A DNA stretch of 64,000 nucleotides from Methanoplanus endosymbiosus. Lineage in GTDB: Archaea > Halobacteriota > Methanomicrobia > Methanomicrobiales > Methanomicrobiaceae. Under the pieces are notes generated by a model, which was given only the letters and a program-made list of their open reading frames with translations, ran no database searches and was not told the origin of the DNA. Each line of letters begins with the position of its first letter. Within the stretch, counting starts at the first letter, position 1. Positions 8,669 through 18,943 of this stretch are shown here, piece after piece. The translations under genes were made by a program, and so were the position numbers. Location: the NCBI RefSeq assembly GCF_024662215.1, contig NZ_CP096115.1, positions 3,050,935 through 3,114,934 on the forward strand, given 5' to 3'.

Positions 8669-8814
8669 TAGCCGTTTTTTCGGAAACGGCTTTTCAATGC
8701 ACCCGTTGATGTGAATCGACGGGGAAGGGCTGAGAGTCAGTAAGGACTCTTTGAGGCCGTGTATAGGTATTCACACAACGACGTTAAATGGATTTTAACG
8801 GTTAAACCGATAAA

Positions 8815-11745
<2,931 letters not shown>

Positions 11746-11753
11746 CATTACTT

Positions 11754-11792
11754 AACCGTTAAAATCCAGACGAAATCGTTGTGTGAATGCCA
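11754..11792 (+). other. 3' half of the 23S processing stem
   Basis: TAACCGTTAAAATCC followed by CGTTGTGTGAATGCC is complementary to GGTATTCACACAACG and GGATTTTAACGGTTA at about 8767-8805. This is the long helix around 23S used for excision of pre-23S rRNA. Confidence 0.8.
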
Positions 11793-11850
11793 ATATGCCG
11801 GATAATTGCAGACAATAATTCAGGTTCATGACCTGATGTCCGGTCTGTGA

Positions 11851-11967
11851 TTGCGGCCATAGCGGCGGGGAAACACCCGGACTCATCTCGAACCCGGCAG
11901 TTAAGCCCGCCCACGTTGGGTGCTGTACTAAGATACGAGAGTTCTTGGGAACCACCTAACGCTGCAA
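11851..11967 (+). rRNA. rrf: 5S ribosomal RNA
   Basis: About 117 bases. The ends TTGCGGC and GCTGCAA pair. The internal segments ACACCCGGACTCATCTCGAA and CCGGCAGTTAAGCCC are the diagnostic 5S loop B and C regions. It is the last gene of the rRNA operon, and no tRNA follows it directly. Confidence 0.95.
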
Positions 11968-12051
11968 TTGCTCATGTGAGTGATTGTGTCTATTCTGAAA
12001 AGTTATTTTGTTAGTGTAAGCTGTTATTCTCCGACATTATGTCATTAAGCC

Positions 12052-12126: not shown

Positions 12127-12768
12127 GTGATACCTGCATCTGATTATGATTCTGCTGAAAAAAAATGCCTCCCATACTGGAATGTTTTTTTTGATACCCT
12201 TCTTGAATTTATTCCGTGTGATTGTGAAAATATTCTGGAGCTGGCATCAGGAACTGGTTTTTTAACCGAAATTTTAGCTGCTGAATTTCCGGATTTGGAT
12301 ATAACGTGCCTTGATATTAACAGGGATTATATTGAATTTGCCCGTCGTAAAGAAAATCTTTCTGGAGTTAAGTTCATAACCGGAGATATGCGTGAATTTG
12401 TCTCTCACATAAAATATGATGCAATTTTAATTTCGCAGGCTCTGACATTTTTGAATGCTCATGACAGGCTGAAACTGGCAGGAAATATTTACCATATGCT
12501 CAATGACGGCGGCACATTTATTGCAGGTGATATCTTCAGTCCGGAAAGTTTGTTTGAAAGAGATCTCTACAAAAAATTGTGGATAACTTTTATGGTTAAA
12601 AACGGTTTTTCGCCTGAAGAGGCAAGTGATATGGTTGCTCCTCTTGACGATTACTGTCAGGGGAATACAGTCTCATCTTTTGAAGAAATACTTAATTCAG
12701 CTGGTTTTAGCCGGGTTATTGTTCCATACCGGAGAGAATATTATGGAATTGTTATTGCATATAAATGA
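12127..12768 (+). CDS. Class I SAM-dependent methyltransferase
   Basis: A 213-residue soluble protein with the Rossmann-type methyltransferase fold. Motif I is LELASGTGFLTEILA, the acidic ribose-binding strand is ITCLDINRDYIEFA, motif II is VKFITGDMREF, and later come YDAILISQAL and LNDGGTFIAGDIF. The small size and absence of extra domains leave the acceptor open. The start is a GTG at 12127, the only in-frame start that gives a full N-terminal helix. It stands alone, preceded by a TATA box and separated from the coenzyme M cluster by about 240 bases without a gene. Confidence 0.85.
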   Translation: MIPASDYDSAEKKCLPYWNVFFDTLLEFIPCDCENILELASGTGFLTEILAAEFPDLDITCLDINRDYIEFARRKENLSGVKFITGDMREFVSHIKYDAILISQALTFLNAHDRLKLAGNIYHMLNDGGTFIAGDIFSPESLFERDLYKKLWITFMVKNGFSPEEASDMVAPLDDYCQGNTVSSFEEILNSAGFSRVIVPYRREYYGIVIAYK

Positions 12769-13009: not shown

Positions 13010-13966
13010 GTGATGAAGATCATCTCCGCAGGCAGTGCAGAAGAAAAGTTCGGAATACCTCCTGATTTCCTTAATGGTGAGGATAAAGGAGTGCCGGATA
13101 ATTTCATCCGGATTCCGGAAACAATTAGTAAATCAGGTAAGGAGAGCATATATGCGAATACATGCAGTTCTCTAACTGTACACAACTCCGATAATCCGGA
13201 AATATCTGAGATAACCATTCTTCCCGGAATTAACCGGGATGGCTGCCGGGAAAATTTTAACAGCATAACCATCCGTCCGGGAGATACAATATCAGTTGTC
13301 GGGCCGACCGGTTCTGGCAAGAGTGCACTGATTAATGACATTGAGATCTTCGCCAGAAAGGATACAGTCACCGGAAGAACCGTTCTCATAAATGGTGAAG
13401 ATCCTCCGGATGAATACATCAGAGACCCTGCAAAAAAGCCCGTTGCACTGATTACCCAGAATACAAAATGCCTGGCAGATCTTATTGTCAGGGATTTTCT
13501 TCAGATGCACCTTCTCTCAAGGAAAATGACCGGAGACAGTATTATTCAGGATACAATCTCACTTGCAAATGAGTTCACCGGAGAAAAAATAATTCCGGAT
13601 GTGAAGATGACCTCACTTTCCGGAGGGCAGACGAGATCACTTATGGTAGCTGATGCGATAATAATCTCCAATGCTCCGATAGTTCTTCTGGATGAAGTGG
13701 AAAATGCAGGAATTTTCAAGGAAAAAGTTATCGAGGCTTTAAAAAAGCACCAGAAATCCTTAATTTTTGTAACCCATGATCCTCTTGTCTCCCTTCTCTC
13801 GGACAGAAGAATTGTAATGAAAAACGGTGCTGTCGATAAAATACTAATTCCCGGAGAAGAAGAGAGAGATGCTCTCCGGGAGATTATCAGAATGGACGGG
13901 ATATTCTGTCGTATGAGGGAGAAGATAAGGGCTGGTGAATTAATTACTTCAGCCGGTGTCATATGA
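13010..13966 (+). CDS. ABC-type ATPase at the head of the coenzyme M cluster
   Basis: A soluble ATPase of 318 residues with a single ABC-type nucleotide-binding domain. Residues 1-85 are a variable N-terminal part with no recognised domain. GPTGSGKSALIND at about residue 97 is the Walker A loop, LSGGQTRSLMVADA is the ABC signature and IVLLDEVEN is Walker B with the catalytic glutamate. No membrane partner is encoded nearby, so a transport role is unlikely; it resembles stand-alone ABC ATPases that assist protein maturation. The first codon is GTG at 13010, with an ATG three bases later that could be the true start. It overlaps the next gene by four bases, and the whole run to ComDE is one operon. 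Confidence 0.8.
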   Translation: MMKIISAGSAEEKFGIPPDFLNGEDKGVPDNFIRIPETISKSGKESIYANTCSSLTVHNSDNPEISEITILPGINRDGCRENFNSITIRPGDTISVVGPTGSGKSALINDIEIFARKDTVTGRTVLINGEDPPDEYIRDPAKKPVALITQNTKCLADLIVRDFLQMHLLSRKMTGDSIIQDTISLANEFTGEKIIPDVKMTSLSGGQTRSLMVADAIIISNAPIVLLDEVENAGIFKEKVIEALKKHQKSLIFVTHDPLVSLLSDRRIVMKNGAVDKILIPGEEERDALREIIRMDGIFCRMREKIRAGELITSAGVI

Positions 13967-14670
13967 AATTACTTGTCATCGCCGGGCCGCCTTCTGCCGG
14001 AAAAACTGCGGTTGTAAGGCAGATAATAAAGCATTTCAACCCGGAAGTTTTGTGTGCATACCTTAAAATTGATGTCGTGACAGCATTTGAGGACAGAGAA
14101 CTTGCAGAGGAGTTTGGTATTCCGGCAAGGAAGATCTGCTCCGGAGATCTATGCCCTGACCATGCCGGAATTATGGTTATGAAAGATGCAGTCTTATGGG
14201 CAGAAGAGGAAGGTGCAGATATGCTGATCGTAGAGAGTGCGGGTCTCTGCCTCAGATGTTCGCCATATACTACCCAGTCGCTTGGAATTGTAGTGCTGAG
14301 TACTGTATCCGGAATAAATTCTCCCTTAAAGATGGCACCAATGCTGGCACTTGCAGATCTTGCGGTTGTGACAAGAACTGATCTCGTTTCCCAGGCGGAA
14401 AAAGAGGTATTCAGGGAGAGAATTAAAGGTGTAAACGGGAATCTTGACATCGTTGAGACAAATGCGGTTCAGGGTACAGGTATGAGATATCTCTTCAGGG
14501 CAATAGATGAACAGACGGATATTTCAGATGCTGATGAGATTGTTCTCAAAGGCACTCCTCCCCTTGGAGTCTGTACAGTATGCGTTGGCAAAAAAGAGAT
14601 CGGCTGGCAGAATCATTTTGGGGTGATAAGGCCGCTTGACAGTGCAGAATTTATGTTTCGGGGTGAATGA
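13963..14670 (+). CDS. P-loop GTPase of the SIMIBI/G3E type (HypB/UreG-like)
   Basis: A 235-residue nucleotide-binding protein. The N-terminus LLVIAGPPSAGKTAVVRQII is the P loop, LIVESAGLCLRCSPY occupies the position of the G3 region, and VVTRTDLV corresponds to the guanine-specificity NK/TxD motif. Five cysteines are visible in two clusters (CSGDLCPDH, CLRC) plus CTVC near the C-terminus, as might bind a metal or an Fe-S cluster. HypB and UreG relatives load nickel into enzymes, so a metallocentre-assembly role is reasonable but inferred. It overlaps the ABC ATPase gene by four bases and is followed after one base by the Fe-S protein gene. Confidence 0.75.
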   Translation: MKLLVIAGPPSAGKTAVVRQIIKHFNPEVLCAYLKIDVVTAFEDRELAEEFGIPARKICSGDLCPDHAGIMVMKDAVLWAEEEGADMLIVESAGLCLRCSPYTTQSLGIVVLSTVSGINSPLKMAPMLALADLAVVTRTDLVSQAEKEVFRERIKGVNGNLDIVETNAVQGTGMRYLFRAIDEQTDISDADEIVLKGTPPLGVCTVCVGKKEIGWQNHFGVIRPLDSAEFMFRGE

Positions 14671-14671
14671 A

Positions 14672-15304
14672 ATGGCAGGATGGCAGCCGCCCGGAAAAGA
14701 CTGCGGCAGATGTGGCTGTCCTGAATGCAGTGAGTTTATAATTTTATTGAAGTCCGGAAAAAAGGTGCTGACAGACTGCCCTTTTTACAGACCGGAAAGT
14801 GAGCCTGTATTGATAAATATTGCCGGAGATACGAATTACAAAGATACTGATATCATTGGCAATTCTCTAGATTTTATACTGCATGCACTTCCCGGAGAAC
14901 CGTCTGCAAGAAAAGTTGTACAGCCTTTTCGTCCTGATCTTGTTGAAAAATGGAATATAATTCCGGGTGATATCGTTCTTGGCCGTCCTGAAGGTGCGGG
15001 ATGTCCGGTTCAGCATGTTCTTTCTGTAATAGATGCCGACTCCGTAACAGGAGTTTTAACCACTCATGTGGTAAGTCCTCTTATTGCAAGAGATCCAAAG
15101 AGAGATGTTAAAGACATTAAGGCCTATAATATGATAGCTTTTGAAGGAATTGCAGAGACTAAAAGGAATCCTCCGGTATTCGGGATGAGGCAGAGGTTTC
15201 TGCCTGGTTACTGCATGATGCATCTTGGTCATACCGGATTGGTAAATATGGTGCTGAAAAGACCTTCAGGTGTTCACATAAGGGTGGAGGATATTATTAT
15301 ATGA
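14672..15304 (+). CDS. Fe-S cluster protein of the coenzyme M cluster
   Basis: About 210 residues. I chose the ATG at 14672, one base after the preceding stop, because it begins right at the conserved part (MAGWQPPGKDCGRCGCPEC). The arrangement of Cys-x2-Cys-x1-Cys-x2-Cys plus a later DCPFY resembles the four-cysteine Fe-S domain of acetyl-CoA synthase/corrinoid Fe-S proteins. The rest contains short conserved segments (DFILHALPGEPSARK, PFRPDLVEKWNI, EGAGCPVQHVL) and no known catalytic motif. Tight coupling, with a four-base overlap into the methanogenesis-marker gene, suggests it supplies electrons or sulfur to that protein. Function unproven. Confidence 0.75.
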   Translation: MAGWQPPGKDCGRCGCPECSEFIILLKSGKKVLTDCPFYRPESEPVLINIAGDTNYKDTDIIGNSLDFILHALPGEPSARKVVQPFRPDLVEKWNIIPGDIVLGRPEGAGCPVQHVLSVIDADSVTGVLTTHVVSPLIARDPKRDVKDIKAYNMIAFEGIAETKRNPPVFGMRQRFLPGYCMMHLGHTGLVNMVLKRPSGVHIRVEDIII

Positions 15305-16527
15305 AAACAACTGCTGAAATCAAAGCAAAACTGGATAAAGGAGAAGCAAAAGTCTATATGGCAGCCGAATTTAAAAAAATGATACGCGATGGCGGAAAAC
15401 CGTCTCTTGATGACGTTGATATTGTTACATGCGGGACATGCGGGATAATGTCTGGTGCAATGGCGGTAATAAGCCTTCAGGTGGCAAAGCCGGGTACATT
15501 CAGACGTGCAGATACAGTCTCTCTGAACGGAGTGCCTGCATATCCTGGTCCAAGTCCGAATGAAGGTCTTGGCATAGTGGATCTGGTTGTATACGGAACC
15601 ACCCATGCTTCTGATGATTATGGCGGTGGTCATTTATTCCGTGATATCATTGAGGAGAAGGAGATTGAAGTTATTGCAGAAGCCGGCGGGAAAAGCTATT
15701 CCAATATACTGTATGGTGATGAATTCCTCTCTTCAAGGATGATTGCCACAAGATGCGCCTACAAAAACTACTCCTGTTTTGTGAATCAATCTCCTGAAGA
15801 TATAAATACAATATTTTCAGCCCTGCCCCTTCGCGGCAATCTGGCTGAGGCCACAGTCAGCGGCTGTGGTGAAATAAATCCGCTTCAGAATGATCCTGAG
15901 ATGAGATCCCTGAAGTCCGGTGCGAAAATTCTCTTAAACGGTGCTGAAGGTTTTATCATGGGGCCTGGTACCAGGAGCACACCGGAAAAACCTAATCTCT
16001 CGGCATTTGCTGATATGGGCGGGATGTCTGGTGAATATACCGGGGGATTTATCACTTCGGCAGGTCCCGAATGTATAATGTCTGTGGCTGGTGCAATTCC
16101 GGTAACAGACGAAAAAATCCTTTCAGATGTGAGCATACTTGACGAGAATATTCCTCTTCCGATTGTGGATATTAAGGACAGATCGCCGCTTGCATATGGG
16201 ACAAATGCAGACATATGGCAGGGAACTGACCACAGAATTAATGTAAATCCGATGAACTGCATATTCTGTGGTGACTGTCCTGCACTTGCAAAATGCCCGA
16301 CAAAGGCTATTATGCCGGGCGGTGGTGTTATTTCATCAAGGTGTGTCTCATGCGGAAACTGTATCCGGACATGCCCCGGTGAGGTTTATTCAATGAAGAC
16401 AAAGCCGGTTAATGTTGGCGGAAGAGAGATCCCTGTAACTCTCAGGCAGTCTGACAGAACGAGAGGGGATAAAATATCAGGAGAATTAAAGGAGAAGATT
16501 ATTGATGGTACTTTCTTATTTCTCTGA
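15301..16527 (+). CDS. Methanogenesis marker 16-type metalloprotein (DUF39 plus two [4Fe-4S] sites)
   Basis: A 408-residue protein. Residues 1-310 belong to the DUF39 family, with the conserved DIVTCGTCGIMSGAMA motif and YGTTHASDDYGGGHLF. Residues about 318-360 are a ferredoxin-like module with CIFCGDCPALAKCP and CVSCGNCIRTCP. DUF39 relatives insert sulfur into aspartate semialdehyde to make homocysteine, with a ferredoxin-type partner. By analogy this paralogue could convert the aldehyde of sulfoacetaldehyde to the thiol of coenzyme M. That is an inference from family chemistry and from its place directly before cysteate synthase and ComDE. It overlaps the Fe-S protein gene by four bases and is 27 bases before the next gene. 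Confidence 0.85.
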   Translation: MKTTAEIKAKLDKGEAKVYMAAEFKKMIRDGGKPSLDDVDIVTCGTCGIMSGAMAVISLQVAKPGTFRRADTVSLNGVPAYPGPSPNEGLGIVDLVVYGTTHASDDYGGGHLFRDIIEEKEIEVIAEAGGKSYSNILYGDEFLSSRMIATRCAYKNYSCFVNQSPEDINTIFSALPLRGNLAEATVSGCGEINPLQNDPEMRSLKSGAKILLNGAEGFIMGPGTRSTPEKPNLSAFADMGGMSGEYTGGFITSAGPECIMSVAGAIPVTDEKILSDVSILDENIPLPIVDIKDRSPLAYGTNADIWQGTDHRINVNPMNCIFCGDCPALAKCPTKAIMPGGGVISSRCVSCGNCIRTCPGEVYSMKTKPVNVGGREIPVTLRQSDRTRGDKISGELKEKIIDGTFLFL

Positions 16528-16554
16528 AGGAAAATCTCCAGTATGGTGAGTTAA

Positions 16555-17823
16555 ATGGGTGAATATAAGCTAAAATGTCCATACTGCGGTAAGATATTTC
16601 CGGATAGGTACACAAATGAATGCCCGTCTAAATGCGGACTGATTCGTGCAGATTACGGGCACAGGCAACTCACTGTCAGAAACCTTCCCGGAATGTTCAG
16701 ATTTCAGGACTGGCTGCCGGTTAAGGGACATATCAAATCAGATGCCGGACCTGTCACATATAAGAGCCTTGAGCTTGCAGAAGAACTTGGTCTTTCAGAA
16801 CTGTATATCTGCTTTAACGGCTACTGGCCTGAAAAATCTGCCTTTATCAAAACATGCTCTTTTAAGGAACTTGAAGCTCTGCCTACATCACTCCGGCTAA
16901 AAGAGCATGGGGGAGGAGTTTTGCAGGTGTCATCCGCAGGAAATACCGGGCGGGCATTTGCGGAAGTGTCTGCAAAATCGAAGATCCCGGTTATTCTGTC
17001 AGTGCCGGAAGAAGGAGTGAAAAATATCTGGACTACTGAAGAGACTGAAGATGTTCTTATGTATTCCGTTTCAGGCGATTATACGGATTCAATAGAGTTT
17101 GGAAACAGTTTATGTGAAATTCCGGGTGTTATCCCTGAAGGCGGAGCAAAAAATCCGGCGAGAAGGGATGGCATGGGCACAACACTTCTTGATGGTGCTG
17201 TCACGATGAAACGGCTTCCTGACTGGTATTTTCAGGCTGTCGGAAGTGGTACCGGGGGAATTGCCGCATGGGAGATGTCACTGAGACTCATTGCGGATGG
17301 CAGGTTTGGGAATAAGCTCCCAAGGCTTCATCTCTGCCAGAATGAGCCGTTTACACCAATGGCTGATGCCTGGAATAAGGGGCTGAGGGATATTGTCTCT
17401 GATTCAGGTGAAATGGAGTCCAGAGAACTTGCTCTTGAGGTATATGCAGGTGTTTTAACAAACCGGCATCCGCCATATTCTGTGGCCGGAGGTCTCTTTG
17501 ATGCCCTTACTGATACAGACGGGGTTATCGTCCCTGTTAAAACTCCGGATGCGAAATCTGCCGGAAAACTGTTTGAGGATACTGAAGGAATCGATCTTGA
17601 CCCTGCGGCAGAGGTATGTGTCGCGTCCCTGATTGATGCAGTTGATGCCGGAACTGTAAAAGATGATGATTATATTCTGCTGAATATCACCGGAGGCGGT
17701 TACAGGCGGCTTACTGAAGATTACGATATGATTCCTGTATTACCTTCTGTAAATCTTCCGGCAGGGAGTACTAATGAAACTGTCAGAACTGAAATTGAGG
17801 AGTGGCTGAAAAATTATGAATGA
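16555..17823 (+). CDS. Cysteate synthase
   Basis: PLP enzyme related to threonine synthase that makes L-cysteate from O-phosphoserine and sulfite, the first step of coenzyme M synthesis in Methanosarcinales and Methanomicrobiales. The 422 residues begin with a cysteine-rich zinc-ribbon-like element (KCPYCGKIFPDRYTNECPSKCG). The PLP lysine is probably in TCSFKELEA, the phosphate loop is in VLQVSSAGNTGRAFAE, and GSGTGGIAAWEMSLR is the second glycine loop. True threonine synthase lacks the coenzyme M neighbours, and the partner gene here is comDE, overlapping by eight bases. Context and sequence together make the call strong. Confidence 0.9.
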   Translation: MGEYKLKCPYCGKIFPDRYTNECPSKCGLIRADYGHRQLTVRNLPGMFRFQDWLPVKGHIKSDAGPVTYKSLELAEELGLSELYICFNGYWPEKSAFIKTCSFKELEALPTSLRLKEHGGGVLQVSSAGNTGRAFAEVSAKSKIPVILSVPEEGVKNIWTTEETEDVLMYSVSGDYTDSIEFGNSLCEIPGVIPEGGAKNPARRDGMGTTLLDGAVTMKRLPDWYFQAVGSGTGGIAAWEMSLRLIADGRFGNKLPRLHLCQNEPFTPMADAWNKGLRDIVSDSGEMESRELALEVYAGVLTNRHPPYSVAGGLFDALTDTDGVIVPVKTPDAKSAGKLFEDTEGIDLDPAAEVCVASLIDAVDAGTVKDDDYILLNITGGGYRRLTEDYDMIPVLPSVNLPAGSTNETVRTEIEEWLKNYE

Positions 17824-18943
17824 GGATAAGGTTCTTGATATTTTAAATGATTTGGGTATTGAATTTGTTGTTTCCCTTCCATGTGACCGGACAAAGGATC
17901 TCTGTGCGGGAATGGAGAGTAAATTTCATTATGTAAATATCAACCGTGAGGAGGATGGGGTTGGGGTCTGTGCCGGTCTTTCCCTTGCAGGCAGGAGATC
18001 TCTTCTACAGATGCAGAGTTCAGGACTTGGTAATTCCATGAATGCTATTATGACACTTACAGATCTTTATGGTCTGCCTCTTCCTGTCATTGCAAGCTGG
18101 AGAGGTGTCTATGAGGAGAAGATTTCTGCTCAGATTCCGTTTAATTCAAAGATACCTGAGATGCTTGAGGCATTTAATATCAGCTATACAATTGTGAATG
18201 AACCTGATGAGTCAGATCTTATCAGAGAAGGGATAATGAAAGCTTTTGATAAGTCAGAAGTACATGTGATCCTAATCACTCCAAAATTCTGGGAGGGTGG
18301 AAGACCTGATTGCTGCGTTCCAGAAATATTCCCTGACAGGTGCAGGCATGTTTCTGTCTCCTATAAACGTGAGATTAAATCTCCGGTTATGAAAAGGTCT
18401 GATGCAATTGAAGCTCTTGCTCCGTTTCTCTCTGATATGCCCGTTATCTGCAATATCGGTGTTCCATGCAAGGAACTGTACAGGGCAGATGACAGGCCTG
18501 AAAATTTCTATATGCTTGGCAGCTATACTCAGGCAACTCCTATAGGGTTTGGGGCTGCACTTGGACAGGAGAAGGATGTTATGGTGATTGACGGTGACGG
18601 AAGCCTTCTTGGCACTGCTGTTTTACCGGCTGTTGCAGCAGAATCTCCTGTAAATCTTATTATTCTTGCCCTTGATAACGGAGCATTCGGAAGTACCGGC
18701 ATGCAGAGAACTCATGCCTGGAATATATGTGATCTGGAATTAATGGCAATCGGAGCGGGGATAAAGAATACTGTTAAGGTACATACTAAAGAGGAACTGT
18801 TGGATGTTTTAAAAAGAAGAAAAAATGGAGAACTTCAGGGTACTCTTTTCATCCATGTTATTATTCTTCCCGGAAATTCGGATGCACCAAATGTACCCTT
18901 AAGTGCATCTGAGATTAAGGAAAGATTTATGACTTCAATCTGA
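17816..18943 (+). CDS. comDE: Sulfopyruvate decarboxylase, fused alpha and beta subunits
   Basis: Thiamine-diphosphate enzyme that converts sulfopyruvate to sulfoacetaldehyde in coenzyme M synthesis. Residues about 1-165 match the alpha (ComD) part with LGIEFVVSLPCDRTKDLC and the glutamate in NREEDGVGVCAGLSLAGR. Residues about 190-375 match the beta (ComE) part with the ThDP motif GDGSLLGTAVLPAVA and LALDNGAFGSTG. Some methanogens encode the two subunits separately; here they are one chain of 375 residues. It is the last gene of the operon, and no further gene follows for 370 bases except degenerate remnants. Confidence 0.95.
   Translation: MNEDKVLDILNDLGIEFVVSLPCDRTKDLCAGMESKFHYVNINREEDGVGVCAGLSLAGRRSLLQMQSSGLGNSMNAIMTLTDLYGLPLPVIASWRGVYEEKISAQIPFNSKIPEMLEAFNISYTIVNEPDESDLIREGIMKAFDKSEVHVILITPKFWEGGRPDCCVPEIFPDRCRHVSVSYKREIKSPVMKRSDAIEALAPFLSDMPVICNIGVPCKELYRADDRPENFYMLGSYTQATPIGFGAALGQEKDVMVIDGDGSLLGTAVLPAVAAESPVNLIILALDNGAFGSTGMQRTHAWNICDLELMAIGAGIKNTVKVHTKEELLDVLKRRKNGELQGTLFIHVIILPGNSDAPNVPLSASEIKERFMTSI

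Follow-up and report, generated by a model that had tools for sequence, protein, structure and literature searches.

Coenzyme M (CoM) is a cofactor required for every molecule of biological methane, and the last step of its synthesis had been the final unassigned one of the pathway needed for methane formation. This step is now assigned: in 2025, methanogenesis marker protein 16 (MMP16) was identified as the main coenzyme M synthase (ComF) in Methanosarcina acetivorans (Chadwick et al., PMC12068725). Deletion of the MMP16 gene made this organism a full CoM auxotroph only when sulfide was withheld, and L-aspartate semialdehyde sulfurtransferase (L-ASST), a paralogue, was suggested to be able to stand in for MMP16 (PMC12068725). 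The MMP16 of M. jannaschii yielded CoM in E. coli (cited in PMC12068725). Genes often co-localized with those for CoM encode an ATPase, a 'Ni2+ binding GTPase', and a COG2000 Fe-S protein, whose role was stated as unknown (PMC12068725, Fig. 2B legend). Here we analyzed such a cluster in 64,000 nucleotides (nt) of the Methanoplanus endosymbiosus genome (3.16 Mb on a single contig, NZ_CP096115.1; positions 3,050,935 to 3,114,934), hereafter the window.

The genes for the ABC ATPase, the G3E GTPase, and the COG2000 Fe-S protein are termed the trio, and the trio together with MMP16 the cassette. The trio is a genuine CoM module, dedicated to this pathway yet dispensable. It is inherited, transferred, and lost with the CoM pathway and therefore probably helps the last, sulfur-adding step; since many genomes have MMP16 without the trio, the trio is not needed for catalysis.

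A six-gene coenzyme M operon

Six genes lie head-to-tail at 13013–18943 on the + strand, to which all window coordinates below refer, and form a CoM operon. They encode (i) a soluble single-domain ABC-type ATPase (13013–13966; 317 amino acids (aa); PF00005), starting with ATG and preceded one codon ahead by an alternative GTG at 13010; (ii) a HypB/UreG-like G3E P-loop NTPase (13963–14670; 235 aa; PF02492); (iii) a COG2000-type Fe-S protein (14672–15304; 210 aa; PF04060); (iv) MMP16/ComF, composed of a DUF39 (HcyBio) domain and a C-terminal two-cluster ferredoxin (15301–16527; 408 aa; PF01837, TIGR03287); (v) cysteate synthase, whose gene is abbreviated cs (16555–17823; 422 aa; TIGR03844, 605 bits, cut-off 325); and (vi) sulfopyruvate decarboxylase with ComD and ComE fused (17816–18943; 375 aa; TIGR03845, 203 bits, cut-off 148; TIGR03846, 221.9 bits, cut-off 221.5). 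The joints, read directly from frames and spacing, are −4, +1, −4, +27, and −8 nt in this order, i.e. overlaps of 4, 4, and 8 nt and gaps of 1 and 27 nt. A first-pass annotation made from the letters alone had described the first four genes as overlapping or abutting and running into cs and comDE, which is correct once two start codons are adjusted. For the Fe-S gene, the TTG start of the listed open reading frame (ORF) at 14636 was rejected as too early, and the start was placed at 14672. The same annotation called the four genes uncharacterized; this no longer applies to MMP16, whose function has been published, and still describes the trio.

The MMP16 product scored 497 bits against TIGR03287 (methanogenesis marker 16; cut-off 364) and 307 bits against PF01837, and its structure was predicted with a mean local confidence (pLDDT) of 94.4. 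Its invariant Cys189 (15865–15867) aligns with the CGC motif of the M. acetivorans protein (Cys200/202, PMC12068725), and its ferredoxin domain (16258–16374) holds eight cysteines (320, 323, 326, 332 and 348, 351, 354, 358). For the DUF39 core, a fold search gave no solved relative in the PDB at E ≤ 0.001. The capacity to make sulfoacetaldehyde is encoded beside MMP16 by cs and comDE of the same operon. Judging from its relatives, in which the activity is known, the window protein is predicted to be a coenzyme M synthase converting sulfoacetaldehyde to CoM, in agreement with what the first reading had proposed for it.

One residue was considered as a marker of the trio. Cys258 of MMP16 (16072–16074) is present in 72 of 74 trio genomes and in 14 of 40 trio-less ones, the others having mostly Val or Ile, with Ile in M. 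acetivorans. It was discarded as evidence, because the MMP16 tree shows just two changes at this residue and only two of eight independent contrasts differ in it, no better than other columns. We also noted an orphan MMP16 (G200:C1:456134-457300, L184) in a genome without comD, cs above cut-off, or trio Fe-S gene.

Linkage, co-loss, and transfer of the trio

Species genomes were scanned with a GTPase profile, and 80 loci were kept of 194 encoding a relative. The Fe-S gene adjoins the GTPase gene at every one of the 80 loci, and at 78 the ABC gene lies ahead of the GTPase gene, so that the arrangement is not due to chance; one of the two exceptions is split by a frame change and the other lies at a contig end. 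The next gene 3′ of the Fe-S gene was MMP16 at 58 loci and cs at 11, with a contig end at 5 and another gene at 6. An apparent ABC–GTPase fusion (L149, 545 aa) proved to be an out-of-frame extension.

To the phylum sample of 246 evenly drawn genomes, for which counts ignore relatedness, the full-length trio Fe-S gene contributed 79 occurrences; 78 of these genomes also have comD and cs, and 72 have MMP16. Among 58 Methanomicrobiales, the Fe-S gene and comD were both present in 40 genomes and both absent in 17, and disagreed once, whereas MMP16 and comD disagreed five times. The trio is therefore lost whenever CoM synthesis is lost in this order, one genome excepted, and the agreement spans several independent losses. 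An McrA tree of 46 genomes implies no fewer than 10 changes in comD. Well-supported branches provide six independent comD contrasts; the trio changes along with comD in five of these and against it in none (sign test p = 0.06, a value constrained by how many pairs there are), and MMP16 changes along with it in about 2.5. The coupling of the trio to CoM synthesis, which the first-pass annotation had proposed, is real (agreement in 57/58 and 78/79 genomes). In genus g6, an apparent loss of MMP16 beside the trio was not a loss: MMP16 sits elsewhere, next to a second comDE-type gene. In G006 (G006:C1:1944527-1946221, L179), a second comDE-type gene adjoins MMP16 separately from the trio–cs–comDE locus of the same genome.

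The full-length Fe-S gene was found in 13 of 31 Methanosarcina genomes. Five Methanosarcina loci (L088, L092, L095, L096, L160) have the order ABC–GTPase–FeS–MMP16, with no cs or comDE in the flanks examined. Genomes such as G246 and G203 possess a native cs–comDE–MMP16 locus (L168, L171) besides the cassette, and in the Methanolobus-like G219 a cs–ABC–GTPase–FeS–comD–comE locus of its own occurs together with the cassette (L173, L163). In the phylogeny of MMP16, the cassette copies group in a single clade (support 100) that is nested within the Methanomicrobiales type (98); the native copies of Methanosarcinaceae are placed separately (98). Judged by loci and tree together, ABC–GTPase–FeS–MMP16 moved as a unit, without cs and comDE, into Methanosarcinaceae, and in this sense the four genes do form the set that the first-pass annotation had seen in them. 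Since the transferred unit carries MMP16 but not cs or comDE, it points to the thiolation step. Metagenome-assembled genomes (MAGs) of Methanomassiliicoccales type contain the six-gene operon, with MMP16 nested in the Methanomicrobiales-type part of the tree. At a further Methanosarcina locus (L098), the trio occurs without MMP16 alongside.

A Methanosarcinales MAG (L073) displays the order trio–MMP16–comA–comB–comC–comDE. Its comA scored 307 bits, and no cysteate synthase above cut-off was detected in the genome; in this lineage the cassette goes with the phosphoenolpyruvate (PEP) route. The trio is thus not bound to the chemistry of cs and accompanies both CoM routes.

The coupling has limits. 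In M. acetivorans (G256), where MMP16 lies just beyond MA3297-3298, a genome search gave no full-length trio Fe-S gene; the published genetics therefore never tested the trio. The reverse is seen in a Methanoregula-like clade (G069, G228, G242, and G244, with CP121470, a complete chromosome, i.e. L074/G287), in which the trio, cs, and comDE are present and MMP16 is missing. This combination occurs in six genomes of the 246-genome sample plus CP121470. Where the assemblies of Methanoregula-like genomes were usable, a COG1900a (L-ASST-type) paralogue was present, scoring about 149–164 bits.

Proposed role of the trio

The ABC protein carries Walker A (GPTGSGKS, residue 97), LSGGQ (202), Walker B (LLDE, 225), and H-loop (THD, 254) motifs; its first ~63 residues (13013–13200) are absent from most relatives. 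No membrane permease partner is encoded among the six operon genes, all of which were assigned to other families, and the trio ABC profile gave no match in the PDB at E ≤ 1e-20.

For the GTPase, HypB is both the best named relative (TIGR00073, 65.5 bits) and the nearest solved protein (2hf8). Five cysteines and one histidine are invariant in the family: CPDH (residues 64–67, 14152–14163), which includes candidate metal ligands, and the two Cys each of CLRC (96–99, 14248–14259) and CTVC (204–207, 14572–14583) are invariant in all subfamilies. The P-loop, CPDH, C-x-RC, a T[KR]-type G4 motif, SQAExEV, and the C-terminal CxxC are kept across all subfamilies. CPDH and GLC, also invariant, fall within HypB motif regions of the 2hf8 profile match, a placement made by profile-level alignment only.

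The Fe-S protein (pLDDT 91.5) begins with a [4Fe-4S] motif (Cys11-Cys14-Cys19-Cys36, 14702–14779). This N-terminal domain matches the [4Fe-4S] domain of the corrinoid iron-sulfur protein (CFeSP) by sequence (best E 7e-6, 4djd chain C) and by fold (4djd, 2ycl, and 4c1n, of the CFeSP-activator complex; fold probability 0.89–0.93). The beta-rich C-terminal domain gave no PDB fold match at E ≤ 0.001. Cys111, His115, Cys181, and His187 of this domain (stretch 15002–15232), a candidate metal or catalytic site, are conserved in every Fe-S subfamily, however divergent from that of the window.

With a probability of roughly 0.4, we read the trio as serving nucleoside triphosphate (NTP)-driven metallocenter maturation or low-potential electron delivery for a COG1900 thiolation enzyme. 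In the pathway, cysteate synthase would convert phosphoserine and sulfite to cysteate, an aminotransferase encoded outside the operon would form sulfopyruvate, ComDE would yield sulfoacetaldehyde, and MMP16 would replace its aldehyde by a thiol to give CoM. The trio would be a dedicated, dispensable helper of this terminal thiolation. We infer that it acts on the COG1900 enzyme, i.e. MMP16 or, where this is missing, its paralogue L-ASST; delivery of electrons and loading of metal are our conjecture as to how. The CFeSP-type Fe-S protein would serve the ferredoxin domain of the enzyme as a donor of low-potential electrons, the soluble ABC ATPase would pay with ATP, as A2 is thought to in activation of methyl-CoM reductase (MCR), and the GTPase would use its HypB-like Cys/His site to load or repair a metal center of the Fe-S protein or the enzyme. 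We count in favor the linkage to comD and cs, the cassette transfer, the L073 cluster, the CFeSP-like N-terminal domain, HypB as relative of the GTPase with its five invariant Cys and one His, a divergent ABC–GTPase pair lacking the Fe-S gene (B2) that stands beside DUF364/DUF4213 'heavy-metal chelation' genes, and the precedent of A2 (PMC12176620). At other loci, B2 stands beside SBP_bac_6-DUF1858 genes.

Several observations weigh against this electron- and metal-delivery role. In the phylum sample, 39 of 111 MMP16-bearing genomes, M. acetivorans included, lack the trio, and the E. coli host in which M. jannaschii MMP16 made CoM was presumably trio-free. In f21 genomes, the trio is paired with cs, and MMP16 with comDE at another place. 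One complete genome of the Methanoregula-like genus group (G167) keeps a divergent trio (S1), while cs, comD, comA, and MMP16 were not found. The GTPase, finally, stays under the HypB cut-off of 121.2 bits and has TRTD at residue 137 where the guanine-specific NKxD is expected, its relatives being of T[KR]xD type. The phrase 'complete thiolation machine', used in the first-pass annotation, is too strong for MMP16 that occurs without the trio and for Methanoregula-like trios that occur without MMP16. The counter-evidence that the annotation had named, DUF39 and NTPase genes in organisms without CoM synthesis, was encountered only at the edge, G167 keeping a divergent trio. As for deletions that need no CoM, the published MMP16 phenotype is conditional on sulfide, and no trio deletion mutants were found in the literature searched. 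S1 second trios, like the S1 trio of G167 (G167:C1:722974-724302, L154), lie beside genes for PKD-domain surface proteins, neighbors that are uninformative on function; the Fe-S protein of G167, at 286 aa, is extended at its C terminus.

Possibly, though we find it doubtful, the trio instead mobilizes sulfur from cysteine, persulfide, or low sulfide and passes it to the COG1900 enzyme, with the C-terminal Cys/His residues of the Fe-S protein as carrier and the NTPases loading it. MMP16 is essential in M. acetivorans once sulfide is withheld, so sulfur supply matters, and the four candidate carrier residues occur in all Fe-S subfamilies. In one genome (G037, L145:5783-9128), a gene for a NifS-type cysteine desulfurase is inserted in the trio between the GTPase gene, which it overlaps, and the Fe-S gene, from which 1 nt separates it; its catalytic Cys loop (GSACSSG) is intact and the pyridoxal phosphate (PLP) lysine is present. 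It was seen in this genome only, however, and in a congener (G058) the GTPase and Fe-S genes are adjacent and the desulfurase is absent. Second trios of another divergent type (S2; L058, L066, L158) are located near genes for LarE, an ATP-dependent sulfur transferase (266–300 bits, cut-off 150), MoeB/ThiF-type, and SsuA/NMT1-like proteins, but the LarE/ThiF neighbors are limited to S2 trios and do not occur in CoM operons. Nor does any trio protein match a known sulfur carrier or transferase family.

An unlikely explanation is that the trio helps an early step rather than thiolation, by supplying or activating sulfite, from which both cysteate synthase and ComA take their sulfur. The trio is tied more closely to cs (78/79) than to MMP16 (72/79), f21 and Methanosarcinaceae genomes have the order cs–ABC–GTPase–FeS(–comD–comE), and Methanoregula-like genomes retain trio–cs–comDE without MMP16. 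As sulfite is needed by both CoM routes, the comABC cluster L073 is compatible as well. The transferred cassette, on the other hand, includes MMP16 and neither cs nor comA, and 34 of the 112 cs-bearing genomes of the phylum sample are trio-less.

We likewise regard it as improbable that the trio is a general cofactor or metal housekeeping module, not specific to CoM and placed in the CoM operon of some lineages only. In its favor are G167, the trio-free function of M. acetivorans MMP16, and related ABC–GTPase pairs whose neighbors are solute-binding, DUF364, or hgcA genes. Two congeneric genomes (G131, G233; L135:4999-10008, L137) have the B2 pair with SBP_bac_6-DUF1858 close to a PF03599/HgcA-family gene, which in L135 is hgcA, encoding the mercury-methylation corrinoid protein (NF040863, 453 bits, cut-off 275). 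Yet the S1, S2, and B2 forms outside CoM clusters are all divergent in sequence, every comD-less Methanomicrobiales genome is also without a CoM-type trio, and the cassette was transferred as a unit that includes MMP16. Overall, the related modules suggest metal, sulfur, or redox work without deciding between these.

That the trio itself performs or replaces thiolation in MMP16-less lineages, as the six sample genomes and CP121470 might invite one to think, is very improbable, given that the Fe-S protein has no DUF39 domain and that the Methanoregula-like genomes with usable assemblies have an L-ASST-type COG1900a as possible stand-in (PMC12068725).

A broader form of the electron- and metal-delivery role is tentative and, in our estimation, somewhat unlikely. 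Trio and COG1900 enzyme would together constitute a single transferable module for NTP-driven reductive thiolation; the trio would power delivery of electrons, metal, or sulfur to MMP16 or to the Methanoregula-like L-ASST, and the NTPase pair would have been reused divergently beside metalloprotein genes, e.g. hgcA.

Upstream flank and comparison with known systems

Upstream, the operon is preceded by an AT-rich gap of 240 nt and a methyltransferase gene (12127–12768). Directly upstream, at ~8800-12000, dense short ORFs on both strands resemble a ribosomal RNA region, which we note as a candidate.

The gene set of the window is identical to that of the cluster in Fig. 2B of PMC12068725. This gene set, the function of MMP16, and the co-localization of the trio are already known from that work. 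New here are the co-loss statistics, the transfer of the cassette, the PEP-route case, the clade without MMP16, the lack of the trio in M. acetivorans, and the paralogous modules. The literature searched makes no mention, in its main text, of the transfer, the co-loss, this clade, the lack in M. acetivorans, or these modules. The comparison also names organisms for experiments, i.e. Methanosarcina carrying the four-gene cassette as an extra, and Methanoregula-like strains, which produce CoM precursors but have no MMP16.

The window MMP16 shares with the MMP16/ComF proteins of M. acetivorans (MA3299) and M. jannaschii (MJ1681) the TIGR03287 score, the two-cluster ferredoxin, Cys189, and the adjacency to cs/comDE. 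It differs from M. acetivorans ComF in ending a four-gene cassette with the trio, which M. acetivorans lacks. With L-ASST (COG1900a, MA1821-MA1822), it has a common DUF39 core (31% identity). Unlike L-ASST, it has no C-terminal CBS part, with a fused ferredoxin instead, and the catalytic Cys54-type residue of L-ASST (MCSSG) is replaced by Ser. The window genome also encodes a homocysteine-type COG1900a paralogue with a CBS part (G000:C1:467268), followed by a ferredoxin-type ORF.

The GTPase has the P-loop fold of the HypB/UreG G3E GTPases (2hf8, 4hi0) and candidate Cys/His motifs that the profile match places in HypB motif regions. It is unlike HypB in its sub-cut-off score, its additional CLRC and C-terminal CxxC, and TRTD in place of NKxD. 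Similarly, the Fe-S protein shares the four-Cys motif and the fold with the large subunit of CFeSP over its first ~45 residues, but it lacks the TIM barrel and the corrinoid-binding domain and has a beta-rich C-terminal domain.

The ABC protein is comparable with A2 (AtwA) of the MCR activation complex. Both are soluble ABC-type ATPases of methanogens, A2 with two ABC domains and the window protein with one. A2 is a precedent for ATP-driven redox activation via Fe-S proteins, with MCR as target (PMC12176620). If the proposed role is true, the NTPase pair and the CFeSP-like protein would be another case of NTP-driven redox or metal work in methanogens beside MCR activation.

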